Shown here piece by piece: positions 27,964 to 34,527 of a DNA stretch of 64,000 bases (the first letter of the stretch is position 1; every line of letters begins with the position of its first letter). The notes below the pieces were generated by a model. That model searched no databases, was not told where the DNA came from, and was given only the letters and a program-made list of their open reading frames with translations. The position numbers and the translations under genes were made by a program. This stretch comes from Orenia marismortui DSM 5156 (GTDB taxonomy: Bacteria > Bacillota > Halanaerobiia > Halobacteroidales > Halobacteroidaceae): positions 247,327 through 311,326 of the forward strand of contig NZ_KB900623.1 in NCBI RefSeq assembly GCF_000379025.1, read 5' to 3'.

Positions 27964-28055
27964 AAATAATTTTAAATTTATGCATATTATAGCAGTTGAT
28001 TTATTATATATTAATATAAGAAATACTTAATATGGAAATTAGGGGAGGAAGTAAT

Positions 28056-28316
28056 ATGGAAATGTTAAAAGTATCATCAAAATCAAAGCCAAAATCTGTG
28101 GCTGGAGCTTTAGCTGCTGTAATAAGAGAAGATGGCAGAGCTGAATTACAAGGTGTTGGTGCTGGAGCTATAAATCAGGCTGTAAAAGCTATTGCTATTG
28201 TAAGAGGTTTTATAGCACCAAATGGTGTGGATTTAGTAGCGATTCCTGCATTTTCTGAGATTGAGATTGATGGTCAAGAAAGAACGGCTATTAAATTTAT
28301 TGTTGAGCCAAGATAG
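28056..28316 (+). CDS. spoVS: Stage V sporulation protein S
   Basis: The 86-residue product is nearly all conserved: MEMLKVSSKSKPKSVAGALA, then VGAGAINQAVKAIAIARG-like sequence and FIVEPR at the end. SpoVS is a small Alba-like protein affecting septation and coat stages in sporulation. GGGGAGGA lies before ATG 28056; ATG 28032 has no site. It is probably monocistronic, with a hairpin terminator 29 bases after the stop. Confidence 0.96.
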   Translation: MEMLKVSSKSKPKSVAGALAAVIREDGRAELQGVGAGAINQAVKAIAIVRGFIAPNGVDLVAIPAFSEIEIDGQERTAIKFIVEPR

Positions 28317-28376: not shown

Positions 28377-28530
28377 GTCTTATTTATTTTTTCTTCTATT
28401 TATGTTAAAATAAAGTTTAGACTTGTTATAAAATCGTAAATTTATGATTAAATTTTGAATATAAGATAATTATTTATAAATTTTTATAACAGTTATCTTT
28501 GACAACTCTTTTAGGGGAAGGATGAGTGTT

Positions 28531-31500
28531 ATGTTTCTTAAAAATATAACAATAAAAGGGTTTAAATCCTTTGCTAACAAGGTAAAGGTAGACTTTGAAC
28601 CTGCAATTACAGGTGTGATTGGGCCTAATGGTAGTGGTAAAAGTAATATCTCAGATGCGATTAGATGGGTTTTAGGGGAGCAAAGTGCTAAAACTCTAAG
28701 AGGAGCTAAGATGGAAGATGTTATTTTTGCTGGTAGTAGTAAGAGAAGGGCTTTGGGGATTGCTGAAGTTACATTAACTTTAGATAATCGAGATGGTTCT
28801 TTACCAATTGAGTATAAGGAAGTAACTGTTGGCCGAAGAGTTAGCAGAAGTGGTGAGAGTGATTATTTAATAAATAATAATCAGTGCCGATTAAAGGATA
28901 TTAAAGAGTTATTTATGGATACAGGTGTTGGAAAAGATGCATACTCTATTATTGGACAAGGTAAAGTAGAAACTATTTTAAGCGAAAATTCCACAGATAG
29001 AAGAGAGCTTTTTGAAGAAGCAGCAGGTATTAGTAAGCATAAAAGTCGTAAGGAAGAAGCTGAGAAGAAGTTAGACAGTACTGAACAGAAATTACAAAGA
29101 ATTGAAGATATTGTTAGGGAGATAGAAAGACAGGTTGGGCCTTTAGAGAAGGAATCGAAAAAAGCTGAAGAATATATCGAATATAAATCAGAGTTAAAAG
29201 AGATAGAAGTTAATCTTCTAAGTAATAAATATATGAAATTAGAAGAGCAACTAGATCAAGATATTGCTAATAAGCAAAGGCTATCTTATCAGCTTACAGA
29301 ATCTAAGGCTGCCGTTAATGAATATGACTTAAGAATTGATAAAGAGAAAGAAAGCTTAGAAGAGTTATCAGTCTCTTCTGATAGACAGAAGGATAAGATT
29401 TTTGAAGCTAAAAGTAATGTGGAGAGAATAGAAAACAAGTTAGAATTAGCTAGACAACAAAAGAGTAATCTTTTAGACCAAGGAAAAAGGTTAAGAGATG
29501 AAATTGTTAAGCTAGAAGATAAAATAGAATTTTTTAGAGAAGAAATCAATAATAAGGATGAGAAAAGAAGAAATTTGCTAGAGACTATCAATGAACAGTC
29601 TCTATTGCTAGATGAAAAAGAAGAAGAATTATCTAGTATAAGTATTAAATTGGAAGAAAAATTAAATATAAAGAAAGAATTTCAAGATAATCAATTAAAT
29701 CAGATTAATAAGATTAATAAGGAAAAACATGAATTAGAAACAGCAAATAGAGAGATTGAAAGGCATAAAAAAGAAATTGCAAAATTAGAAGATAGTAAAA
29801 GGGATTTAAAAGTAGAACTTGATGAAATTCAACGGGAAAAAAAATTAAAAGAAGAGAAGCTAACAGAGATAAAGTTGAATTTACAAGAAAATAAAGAGAA
29901 GGCTGAAGAAGAGAAGCTAAGTAATAATAAGTTACAACAGGAATTGAATAATTTAAGAGATGAGTATGATGATTTTAAAGATAGGGTTAAATCTAAAGAA
30001 TCTAGATTAAAAGTTTTAGAAGGAATGGAAGAAAATTATCAAGGATACTATAGGGGCGTTAAAAACTTATTAAAATATGTTAAAGAAAGCAATCAACTAC
30101 AAGGAGTATGTGGTGTATTGGCTGAATTAATCGATACCCCTAAGGATTATGAAACAGCAATTGAAGTTGCTTTAGGCAGTGCTTTACAGAATATTGTTGT
30201 AGAAGATGATAGAGTAGGGAAAAAGGCTATCTCTTATTTGAAGAAGAACAGGGGAGGAAGAGCAACTTTTTTACCTCTTAATTTAGTATCTTCTAGATAT
30301 TTAAATAGTAGAGAAAAAGATGCTTTAGATATTAATGGAGCTATTGGAGTTGCAAGAGATTTAGTTAGTTTTAGTGATAAATATAAATCAGTTGTTGATA
30401 ATCTTCTTGGTAGAGTGATTATTGCTAAGGATATAGATGCAGCAGTTAAGATTTCTAAAGCAGCAGATAAAAGAGTAAAAGTGGTAAGTTTAGATGGGGA
30501 TGTAGTAAACCCTGGTGGTTCGATGACTGGTGGTAGTCGTAATCAGAATAATAATATATTAGGACGTTCGCGTGAGATTGAGGATTTATCTAAAGAAGTT
30601 AAAGAGCTTAATATTAAGCTATCCAGGTTAGAGAAAAAAGGTATTGAAAAGAAAGAAAATTTAGTAAAATCAGAAGATTCTTTAACAGGGTTAAATAAGA
30701 GAATACATAGTTTAGAAATAGAAGCAACAAATTATTCTAAGGATTATCAGCAAGTAAGTAGAGATTTGATAAGGTTAAAAGATGAAATCAATAATAGAGA
30801 TAATGAATTAGAAGAACTTAAGGTAAGTATATCTAGTTTAAGAGATAAGATTAAGGTATTGACTCGATCCTTAGATAATTTAACAGATGATGATTCTAAT
30901 ATCAAGGATGTAATTTTTAAGGTGGAAGAAGATATTAAATCTTTAGAAAGTAAAAAAGAAGGGTTATCTAAAGAAATTACAGATTTAAAAGTTAGAATTG
31001 CTTCATTGAAGCAAGAAAAAGAGAATATAAGCGAGGAGATTAATTCTAAAGAAAAATCAATTACAGATGCTGAAAATGAAATTAAAAATAAAGAAGAAGA
31101 GATAACTCGTTTCAAGCAAAAGGTTGATAGTCTAGATTCTAAGCAAGATGAATTGCTTAAGGAAAAAGAAGAGATGAGCCAAAAGGTTATTAAACTAAAA
31201 GAAGATCTAGATAATTTTAGAACAGAATCGAAAAAGATTAAGGCTAAGATTGATGAATATCAGAAAGAATCTAAAGATATTAGAAGCAAGTATGAGAAGG
31301 TACAAGAAGAATATAATAAAATTAAAGTAGATTTAGCACAGTTACAAGTTAAATTAGAGAATATTGAAAATAGATTGCAAGAAGAATATGAGTTGGAGGT
31401 ATATGAAATTACCTCTGAGGTTGAAGAAATTAAAGATTATGATAAAGCAGAGAAGACCATAACTAAGCTTAAAAGGTCAATGAAAAGATTAGAACCAGTA

Positions 31501-32103
31501 AATTTAGGTGCTATTGAAGAATATGAAACTTTAAGTCAACGATTTAACTTCTTAAAAGAGCAGCATCAAGATTTAGTCGAATCTAAAGAATCTTTGGAAG
31601 AGGTAATTGGAGAAATTGAAGAAGAGATGAAAGAAAAGTTTATAAATACTTTTAAGCAAGTTAAAGTAGAGTTTGAAAAGATCTTTACTGATTTATTTGA
31701 AGGTGGACAAGCTGAGTTAAACTTAGAAGATGAGGAAGATTTATTAACTACAGGAATAGAAATCAATGCTCAACCGCCAGGGAAGAAGTTACAAAAGTTA
31801 TCATTGATGTCTGGTGGAGAAAAAGCATTAACAGCAACAGCTTTAATCTTTTCATTACTGAAGGTTAATCCTAGTCCATTTTATGTATTAGATGAGCTTG
31901 ATGCACCATTAGATGATGCTAATGTTAATAGATTTGCAGAATACTTAAGAAGGCTTTCAGAGATGGCTCAATTTATTGTGATAACTCATAGAAAAGGAAC
32001 TATGGCAGCAGTTAATGCTTTATATGGTGTTACAATGCAAGAGTCTGGAGTATCTCAATTAGTATCTCTAAATATGGAGGAATTAGAGGAATATGAGGAA
32101 TAA
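28531..32103 (+). CDS. smc: Chromosome segregation ATPase SMC
   Basis: SMC folds and resolves the chromosome with ScpA and ScpB, both encoded 5 kb upstream. The protein of 1190 residues starts MFLKNITIKGFKSFANKVKV, with Walker A GPNGSGKSN at 31-39. Two long coiled coils flank a hinge (about residues 505-680, with GVCGVLAELI and GGSMTGGSR). The C-terminal head has the ABC signature LSLMSGGEKALTATAL and Walker B FYVLDELDAPLDD. ATG 28531 is preferred over ATG 28522, which lies against the GGGGAAGG site. Confidence 0.97.
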   Translation: MFLKNITIKGFKSFANKVKVDFEPAITGVIGPNGSGKSNISDAIRWVLGEQSAKTLRGAKMEDVIFAGSSKRRALGIAEVTLTLDNRDGSLPIEYKEVTVGRRVSRSGESDYLINNNQCRLKDIKELFMDTGVGKDAYSIIGQGKVETILSENSTDRRELFEEAAGISKHKSRKEEAEKKLDSTEQKLQRIEDIVREIERQVGPLEKESKKAEEYIEYKSELKEIEVNLLSNKYMKLEEQLDQDIANKQRLSYQLTESKAAVNEYDLRIDKEKESLEELSVSSDRQKDKIFEAKSNVERIENKLELARQQKSNLLDQGKRLRDEIVKLEDKIEFFREEINNKDEKRRNLLETINEQSLLLDEKEEELSSISIKLEEKLNIKKEFQDNQLNQINKINKEKHELETANREIERHKKEIAKLEDSKRDLKVELDEIQREKKLKEEKLTEIKLNLQENKEKAEEEKLSNNKLQQELNNLRDEYDDFKDRVKSKESRLKVLEGMEENYQGYYRGVKNLLKYVKESNQLQGVCGVLAELIDTPKDYETAIEVALGSALQNIVVEDDRVGKKAISYLKKNRGGRATFLPLNLVSSRYLNSREKDALDINGAIGVARDLVSFSDKYKSVVDNLLGRVIIAKDIDAAVKISKAADKRVKVVSLDGDVVNPGGSMTGGSRNQNNNILGRSREIEDLSKEVKELNIKLSRLEKKGIEKKENLVKSEDSLTGLNKRIHSLEIEATNYSKDYQQVSRDLIRLKDEINNRDNELEELKVSISSLRDKIKVLTRSLDNLTDDDSNIKDVIFKVEEDIKSLESKKEGLSKEITDLKVRIASLKQEKENISEEINSKEKSITDAENEIKNKEEEITRFKQKVDSLDSKQDELLKEKEEMSQKVIKLKEDLDNFRTESKKIKAKIDEYQKESKDIRSKYEKVQEEYNKIKVDLAQLQVKLENIENRLQEEYELEVYEITSEVEEIKDYDKAEKTITKLKRSMKRLEPVNLGAIEEYETLSQRFNFLKEQHQDLVESKESLEEVIGEIEEEMKEKFINTFKQVKVEFEKIFTDLFEGGQAELNLEDEEDLLTTGIEINAQPPGKKLQKLSLMSGGEKALTATALIFSLLKVNPSPFYVLDELDAPLDDANVNRFAEYLRRLSEMAQFIVITHRKGTMAAVNALYGVTMQESGVSQLVSLNMEELEEYEE

Positions 32104-32303
32104 TTAATTTATTAAAATTAATTGAGATTTATGGTTAAAAATCTTTATCATATCTTATAGAAATCATAAATTTGATCTTATAATTATATCTGTAGTTTGA
32201 AGCTGTTAGCTTTAAATATTGATTATTAGATAGATAGTATAAGACTTGAAGTTGCATATAGAATTTAATAAAGAGGAAAAATATCCTTTAAAGGAGGTAT
32301 AGT

Positions 32304-33437
32304 ATGAAAGTAAGAGGAATAGCAAAATTTATAGTAGATAGATTAGTAGATAGAAGTAATCATTTAAGTCAAGGAAGATCAGCAGGAGCAATAGGCTTTA
32401 TTAATCAAGAAGGATATGTTGATGCTTTAACTGAAATAGTAAATGGAGGAATATCTGGTTTGCCTTATAGACAGATGCTAGCCAAAGTGGCTAAGACTGA
32501 AGGTGAATCTTTGCTTGAGTCTATTAACCAGCTTCCTGAAAATGCTGTAATTATTACTACTAACCCAGGGAAAACTGGTATTATTGTAGGTACAGGAGGA
32601 TTAGATATTTTTAATATCCCTCTAATTAGTATTGGGGTTAAGATGGGAGAATGTGCAGGAGTAGGTATTATATATCCAAAGAAAGAATATTTTGATTTGT
32701 CCACTGAGTCTGAAGATATTCAATTACATAGATTAACAGCTAAAACTATGGAGGAAGAACGGGAAATTTTACGAGAGTCTTTTAATTTACAACTAAATTA
32801 TTTGGATATTTGTAAAGAGTTAAAGCAGATAGATATACCAGAGCAAAAGTTTGACTTAACTAAAATTAATGAAGATGATTGGCAAGTACCAGCTATTGAA
32901 GTGAATTCTATTGATAAAGAATTTGCTGAAAGATTGGTTGCTAAATCTACAGAAGTGGAACAAGGTAGAGAAGTAGCAGCAATTGGAGAAATCATAGATG
33001 GACATATTGTCCAAAAAGGAGAAATTGTTATTGGGGGGATGGGGTATGTACCTTCTCGAATGTTAGCTTCTAGTTATACTGATATTTCTGGACTTTCTTT
33101 AAAAGAAGCTTATACTAAAGTGATTCCCAACAATATTGCAATAGTGCATACTCACCCTGGAGGAACTGGAGTAATGCATATGGGTGATGCTATGGCAGGA
33201 CCAGGAACTTGGGGAAGACCTGTAATAGCTATCGGCCATGATAAAGATGGAGCTATTAAAGGAGCTACAGTGATTGAACTATTACCTAAGGTAGCTGATT
33301 TAGCTGACGAATATGAAGAAGTAGGTCAGAAATATTATGCAGCTGAAACGCCTGAAGAAGAAGCAGAAATTAGAAAGAGACGTTTTGGAATTGCTCAAGA
33401 ATATACAGACTTATGTAAACCGTTAGAATTGAAATAG
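32304..33437 (+). CDS. Unknown protein with tandem MPN/JAMM-like domains
   Basis: The function is not known. The two halves resemble each other: AIGFINQEG...[16 protein letters not shown]...[17 protein letters not shown] in the first, AIGEIIDGH...[15 protein letters not shown]...[19 protein letters not shown] in the second. The second has H282-T-H284-P-G and D295, the same spacing as the JAMM zinc motif HxHP-x7-S-x2-D of Rpn11-type proteases, except that the usual Ser is His292. In the first half the histidines are replaced (T85-T-N87-P). A linker of ~90 residues rich in Glu lies between them. It lies between smc and ftsY with AAAGGAGG before ATG, and ftsY follows at 17 bases, so the two are probably one transcript. 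There is no signal peptide; it should be cytoplasmic. Confidence 0.7.
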
Positions 33438-33453: not shown

Positions 33454-34527
33454 ATGTTAAAAAAGATCTTTGGTTTTGCTAAAAAAAATAAGAAAAAAGA
33501 AGAAATAGAAGGGGTTGAAGAAACTACTACAGCCAATGAAATGGTAGAGGAAGATGAAGTAAAAGAAGATGTAATAGATAAAGAAATTGAAAAAGAAGAA
33601 AAAGTAGGCTTCTTCTCCAGGCTAAAGAAAGGGTTAACTAAGACTAGAGAAGGATTTGTAGCTCAAGTTGAAAATCTTTTTAGTAAATTTTCTACTATTA
33701 ATGATGAATTATATGAGGAATTAGAAGAGATTCTTATTCAAGCAGATGTAGGAGTACATACTACAATGAAGTTAGTAGATAACCTGAGAGGTAAGGCTAA
33801 GGAAGAAAAGATTAAAGAACTAAAGGAATTGACTAAATTATTCCAAGATCAATTAACTGAAATTCTGACTAAAGGTACTAAAGAGGAAGATAATGATCAG
33901 CCTACTATATTAATGGTTGTGGGAGTAAATGGAGCTGGAAAGACAACAACTATCGGTAAGATTGCGCAAAGAACTAAAGAAGCAGGTATGGAAGTTCTGT
34001 TAGGTGCTGGAGATACCTTTAGAGCTGCTGCAATTGATCAATTAAAGGTTTGGTCTTCTAGGGTGGGGGTTGACATCATTGCCCACCAAGAGGGATCAGA
34101 TGCTGCTGCTGTAGCTTATGATGCGGTACAGGCTGCTAAATCAAGAGAAGTAGATCTATTAATTGTAGATACTGCTGGTAGATTACATACCCAATCTAAT
34201 TTGATGGAAGAGTTAAAAAAGGTTAAAAGAGTAATTAAGCGTGAAGCAGATAATATGGCTGTTGAAGTATTATTGGTATTAGATGCTACAACGGGTCAAA
34301 ATGCAATTTCTCAAGCTAAATTATTCAATGATGCCGTTGATGTAGATGGTATAGTTCTAACCAAATTAGATGGTACAGCCAAGGGTGGTGTAGTAGTAGC
34401 AATTAAAGAAGAGCTAGGTATTCCAATTAAGTTAATTGGTGTTGGTGAGTCTGCAGAAGATTTACAGGATTTTGAGCCAGAATCATTTATTGAAGCCTTA
34501 TTTGAAGGTGGATTTGAAGAAGAGTAG
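33454..34527 (+). CDS. ftsY: Signal recognition particle receptor FtsY
   Basis: FtsY docks SRP-bound ribosomes at the membrane. The 357-residue protein has an acidic N-terminal region (about residues 15-50, many Glu), an N domain, then the GTPase with GVNGAGKTTTIGK, GAGDTFRAAAIDQL, IVDTAGRLHTQSNLM, TKLDGTAKGG and GVGESAEDLQDFEPESF at the end. All motifs are intact. AGGGGGA precedes the ATG. A GC-rich hairpin follows. Confidence 0.97.
   Translation: MLKKIFGFAKKNKKKEEIEGVEETTTANEMVEEDEVKEDVIDKEIEKEEKVGFFSRLKKGLTKTREGFVAQVENLFSKFSTINDELYEELEEILIQADVGVHTTMKLVDNLRGKAKEEKIKELKELTKLFQDQLTEILTKGTKEEDNDQPTILMVVGVNGAGKTTTIGKIAQRTKEAGMEVLLGAGDTFRAAAIDQLKVWSSRVGVDIIAHQEGSDAAAVAYDAVQAAKSREVDLLIVDTAGRLHTQSNLMEELKKVKRVIKREADNMAVEVLLVLDATTGQNAISQAKLFNDAVDVDGIVLTKLDGTAKGGVVVAIKEELGIPIKLIGVGESAEDLQDFEPESFIEALFEGGFEEE

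Follow-up and report, generated by a model that had tools for sequence, protein, structure and literature searches.

Predicted tandem MPN domains, one with a JAMM-type motif and one without, in a protein encoded between smc and ftsY in Orenia marismortui

We describe a 377-residue protein, here named TMPN (tandem MPN protein), which is the product of a tandem duplication and whose two halves are both predicted to adopt the MPN fold. The C-terminal half carries putative metal-ligand and glutamate residues at the spacing of a JAMM site, with histidine in place of the customary serine, while the N-terminal half lacks the site residues. On balance, and with moderate confidence, we read TMPN as a two-domain MPN protein in which the C domain would act as a zinc hydrolase and the N domain as its inactive in-chain partner.

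Results

The TMPN gene and its surroundings

The window, that is, the whole analyzed stretch of 64,000 nucleotides, contains the following features (window coordinates; residue numbers are those of TMPN):

28522..32103, + strand: smc, conserved neighbor upstream of TMPN
32293..32297, + strand: ribosome-binding site GGAGG of TMPN, read from the sequence
32304..33437, + strand: TMPN, 377 aa, defined by open reading frame, homologues and AlphaFold2 model
32304..32837, + strand: predicted N-terminal degenerate MPN domain, residues 1-178 (structural match to AMSH-LP/Sst2 JAMM domains; site positions variable or gapped)
32469-32471, + strand: R56, N-half counterpart of R252 (also 51/51)
32838..32888, + strand: variable linker, residues 179-195 (column entropy)
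32889..33434, + strand: predicted C-terminal MPN+ (JAMM-motif) domain, residues 196-377 (match to Pf JAMM1, 5lda; invariant motif)
32970..32972, + strand: E223, putative general base, residue 2 of strand 222-231 (51/51; DSSP)
33057..33059, + strand: R252 of GGxGxxPSR (51/51)
33147..33155, + strand: H282-T-H284, putative Zn ligands ending strand 278-285 (51/51; DSSP)
33177..33179, + strand: H292, where the JAMM serine would sit (51/51)
33186..33188, + strand: D295, putative Zn ligand in helix 293-298 (51/51; DSSP)
33454..34527, + strand: ftsY, conserved neighbor downstream of TMPN after a 16-nt gap

The start codon is ATG, with AAAGGAGG on its 5' side. TMPN has its own ribosome-binding site, and no terminator-like site was found on the + strand in the 16-nt gap between TMPN and ftsY; judged from this arrangement, co-transcription of the two genes is plausible. 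The boundary between the halves is marked by a rise in mean column entropy to about 2.9 bits at residues 176-195, versus 1.4 bits in the N half and 1.1 bits in the C half. A spoVS-like gene (28032-28316) adjoins smc on its 5' side, a position it also occupies in several related loci.

The two halves arose by tandem duplication

The sequence-only reading had proposed that the two halves of the protein align with each other, and this is borne out by all comparisons made here. Residues 1-195 and 196-377 share 60 identities over 179 aligned positions (34%; BLASTP E 3e-26), and their Smith-Waterman score of 216 lies far above that of 1000 shuffles (mean 32, sd 5.6, maximum 65; z=33). The family profiles of the N and C halves match each other with a profile-profile E of 1.7e-31. 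When the C-half profile was run across the phylum sample of 398 genomes, two adjacent matches in one frame were obtained in all 41 positive genomes, and no single-domain relative was seen. TMPN is the product of a tandem duplication.

Profile libraries do not recognize TMPN

Searches against the Pfam, NCBIfam, PADLOC and PHROGs profiles gave nothing above chance, and no match was found among PDB sequences. Prok-JAB (PF14464) and other Pfam or NCBIfam families yielded only sub-threshold, unrelated matches. One of these, a match of N-half residues 57-102 to a KH domain (Pfam KH_2, E 0.005), was rejected, since its 17 bits fall short of the cut-off of 22 and the model shows MPN at this place. In pairwise hhalign comparisons, the C half scored weakly against RadC (E 3e-4, probability 38%, a single comparison) and negligibly against Prok-JAB (E 0.024, probability 2%), with Prok-JAB versus RadC serving as positive control (E 1e-4, a value that the RadC comparison approaches); TMPN shows neither the RadC signature HNHPSGDPxPSxxD nor a match to the RadC profile. 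As the profile libraries miss TMPN, its assignment to the MPN superfamily rests on predicted structure and motif. A mobile or phage origin was considered and rejected: there was no match in the phage and plasmid collections, no relative on a viral contig and nothing of note in PADLOC or PHROGs. A literature search turned up no description of the family, an absence that is not proof of novelty.

Both halves are predicted to adopt the MPN fold

AlphaFold2, run without templates on an alignment of nine sequences (the window protein plus those of eight loci), gave a model of TMPN with pLDDT 87.6 and pTM 0.86, the latter value saying only that domain placement is confidently predicted. In a structural comparison of the model by VIA-align, the C half (198-377) matched Pyrococcus JAMM1 (5lda) with Z 10.1 at 3.3 A over 126 residues, and the N half (1-183/185) matched AMSH-LP, STAMBP and Sst2 with Z 8.9 to 8.1. 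Every one of the fifty listed entries was either an MPN/JAMM chain or Prp8's MPN-like domain, with Z = 8.0 still at rank 50; according to VIA-align's own note, models that have no clear match typically reach a best Z of 7-8 and a Z of 4-5 at rank 50. Foldseek against the PDB returned Pyrococcus JAMM1, DrBRCC36, proteasomal Rpn11 and CfBRCC36 as first matches, the best ones to Pf JAMM1 having probabilities of 0.97-0.99 and a modest best E of 2e-3 (probability 0.99). A prediction for the N half by itself, made with no alignment, was too poor to use (pLDDT 36). Neither half thus came out with a fold unrelated to MPN: within one AlphaFold2 model both are predicted to be MPN domains, and the structural matches agree with this assignment.

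A JAMM-type motif is invariant in the C half and lost from the N half

The JAMM family motif is ExnHxHx7Sx2D, in which the serine has an oxyanion-stabilizing role (PMC9313428, where the roles of the motif Glu and Ser are given). The C half of TMPN reads H282-T-H284-P-G...H292..D295, corresponding to HxHx7[S->H]x2D, exactly as the sequence-only reading had claimed, and in 51 distinct homologues, whose identity to the window protein is about 50-89%, E223, H282, T283, H284, P285, G286, G289, M291, H292 and D295 never vary. The HxHP...D pattern is therefore conserved in every homologue examined. E223, which the earlier reading did not name, occupies the position expected of the JAMM glutamate; in the model, helix 205-217 precedes strand 222-231, of which E223 is the second residue. 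The ligand and glutamate part of an MPN+/JAMM site is accordingly present at canonical spacing in 51/51 sequences, while the conserved serine is replaced by histidine in all 51, as had also been read from the single sequence.

At the corresponding place (residues 85-89) the N half reads TTNPG, confirming that this copy is devoid of the histidines. Across the 51 homologues the equivalent of the glutamate is S, N, P, A or others, that of H282 is T, S, V or others, that of H284 is R, N, D or S and that of D295 is V, T, I or E, with the Ser/His position gapped. Scaffold positions are nonetheless common to both halves (GR, GG, R56/R252, T86/T283, PG and the glycines 92/289 and 111/311), indicating that the loss of the site from the N half is specific rather than a sign of general decay. 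With a predicted MPN fold and none of the JAMM residues, the N half would classify as MPN-.

Distribution, gene order and selection

Relatives of TMPN were found in 28 of the 59 genomes of the class, in all 10 genomes of another class and in 41 of the 398 genomes sampled across the phylum, the carriers including Orenia metallireducens, Halonatronum, Halanaerobacter, Frackibacter, Fuchsiella, a Halothermothrix MAG and Carboxydocella thermautotrophica. Nearly all main-copy loci have smc upstream and ftsY downstream. Exceptions are two paralogue loci (L029, L030), two loci truncated by contig ends and the Carboxydocella locus (L036), where ftsY lies downstream and smc was not detected. In TMPN-negative genomes with both neighbors readable, smc stands directly beside ftsY, a clean absence. 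Pairwise distances of TMPN correlate with those of ftsY (0.84, reached in 0 of 2000 permutations), and the mean distance is slightly larger for TMPN (0.44 vs 0.38), that is, TMPN evolves slightly faster. Tracking ftsY at an only slightly higher rate suggests that TMPN is old and mostly vertically inherited, with losses. In both halves dN was 0.02-0.09 and dS mostly 0.3-1.5, with dS near saturation in some pairs. Purifying selection is similar on the two halves, and the low dN relative to dS in both argues that the N half is maintained.

Diverged second copies, with about 48-51% identity to the window protein and located outside the smc-ftsY interval, occur in two Orenia genomes and in Halonatronum (L029, L030, L091-L093). 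Both Orenia second-copy loci have the same predicted secreted protein of 457-467 aa upstream; no clue to function emerged from the paralogue neighborhoods of Orenia and Halonatronum.

Discussion

The two-domain reading of TMPN can be phrased as a mechanism. Within the C domain (196-377), H282, H284 and D295 most likely coordinate one Zn2+, with E223 activating the metal-bound water and H292 standing in for the oxyanion-stabilizing serine; the domain would most likely hydrolyze a peptide or isopeptide bond in some housekeeping protein. Its N-terminal counterpart, having lost the metal site but kept the scaffold under selection, would probably be a fixed in-chain partner that, by analogy to the MPN- subunits which assist MPN+ subunits in eukaryotes, stabilizes the C domain, gates it or recruits substrate for it. 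The replacement of serine by histidine renders the putative activity less certain and is our main reason for caution: H292 could stabilize the oxyanion, bind metal or mark a different reaction, and its presence in all members could mean that peptidase activity is altered or absent.

The main rival takes up exactly this point and holds that the C-half zinc serves stability or sensing in a non-hydrolytic protein, an interaction platform perhaps for FtsY/SRP or SMC. The serine-to-histidine exchange in every member and the strict smc-TMPN-ftsY order speak for such a scaffold, as does the fact that many MPN proteins serve as scaffolds (PMC9313428). A purely structural zinc site, on the other hand, has no need of E223, which is invariant (51/51) while its N-half counterpart drifts; moreover, paralogues away from smc-ftsY retain HTHP...H..D, and some genomes possess smc and ftsY but no TMPN. 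Taken together, we consider a scaffold function possible, if rather unlikely.

Processing of a ThiS/MoaD-type sulfur carrier, with TMPN removing a C-terminal extension as known prokaryotic JAB proteins do, appears improbable. A role of this kind is known for JAMM/JAB proteins encoded beside ThiS/E1 genes (PMC1779556), and the same genome encodes a ThiS-like protein ending in GGGANV, with a tail beyond the glycines. Yet an E1-like gene and a canonical Prok-JAB gene distinct from TMPN are found close to this gene, and the Prok-JAB product could supply the activity; in none of the loci examined was TMPN linked to genes of this type. The ThiS-like protein itself (...FMGGGANV, a three-residue tail) is encoded outside the window at G000:C4:277075-278421 (L059, L124), near the E1-like and Prok-JAB genes.

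That TMPN is a sporulation-specific Firmicutes protein is unlikely. Within the class it does tend to co-occur with SpoIVA (both in 20 genomes, TMPN only in 8, SpoIVA only in 7, neither in 24), but this association is confounded by shared ancestry. Against such a role stand the eight TMPN-positive genomes without SpoIVA, seven of one family (f8, G033-G039) plus G009, in which the gene is kept in the absence of this sporulation gene, and across the phylum sample SpoIVA is present in 336 of 398 genomes versus 41 of 398 for TMPN. Finally, an accidental resemblance of motif and fold in an unrelated alpha/beta duplication, to which the lack of a sequence-profile match to JAB/MPN would lend itself, is the least credible explanation and, as far as the model can be relied on, largely refuted, since motif spacing, invariance, secondary-structure placement and the structural match of both halves to one superfamily agree independently.

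An MPN+/MPN- pair in one chain, as the sequence-only reading had envisaged, hence remains the best reading, given a C-half motif found in 51/51 homologues and an N half that is MPN-like in the model and free of site residues. The proteasome lid, the COP9 signalosome, eIF3 and BRCC36 complexes are characterized by the pairing of an active with an inactive MPN subunit. Like TMPN, Rpn11/Rpn8, CSN5/CSN6 and BRCC36/Abraxas (KIAA0157) combine an MPN domain of intact motif with a motif-less one, and chains of these complexes are among the structural matches; the eukaryotic pairs, however, are separate subunits of large complexes, whereas TMPN carries both domains in one bacterial chain. The likeness to Rpn11/Rpn8 is one of arrangement, seen in the motif status and predicted fold of each half. 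Because the similarity between the two halves (E 1.7e-31) far exceeds that of either half to JAB or RadC, the pair most likely originated by duplication within this bacterial family, and comparison at the sequence level suggests that it probably arose independently of the eukaryotic pairs, with convergent arrangement rather than shared descent.

Archaeal JAMM1 (Pyrococcus furiosus, 5lda/5ld9), the closest structural match to the predicted C half, and AfJAMM (1oi0) have the MPN fold, the HxHx7[S/H]x2D pattern and the upstream glutamate in common with TMPN. Unlike TMPN, they are single-domain proteins with serine rather than histidine and are not known to carry a degenerate partner in the chain. 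An organization of the eukaryotic Rpn11-Rpn8 type is not known in archaea, according to work on CsRpn11 (PMC6043591). Prok-JAB (PF14464) and RadC are likewise bacterial proteins with MPN/JAMM motifs, the C half being weakly RadC-like by profile; TMPN, however, is missed by the Pfam models, and the Prok-JAB of the same genome sits near ThiS/E1 genes. The catalytic domains of AMSH, AMSH-LP and Sst2, which the predicted N half resembles most closely (Z 8.9-8.1), are catalytically intact, whereas the N half of TMPN has none of the site residues.

As far as the model permits, TMPN would thus represent a new family of MPN proteins in which an MPN- and an MPN+ domain are fused and histidine takes the place of serine. 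A bolder proposal, which we offer tentatively, is that of a so far unrecognized bacterial metallohydrolase family in which an MPN+/MPN- partnership evolved independently within one chain, with a His-for-Ser site and a housekeeping substrate, be it an SRP or SMC protein or an undiscovered conjugate. If true, TMPN would be a covalently fused, ancient bacterial MPN pair that is invisible to profile libraries. Being small and soluble, such a system would lend itself to asking what an inactive MPN domain does for an active one and whether histidine can replace the catalytic serine, and a housekeeping-operon gene that so far lacks annotation would gain a testable prediction.
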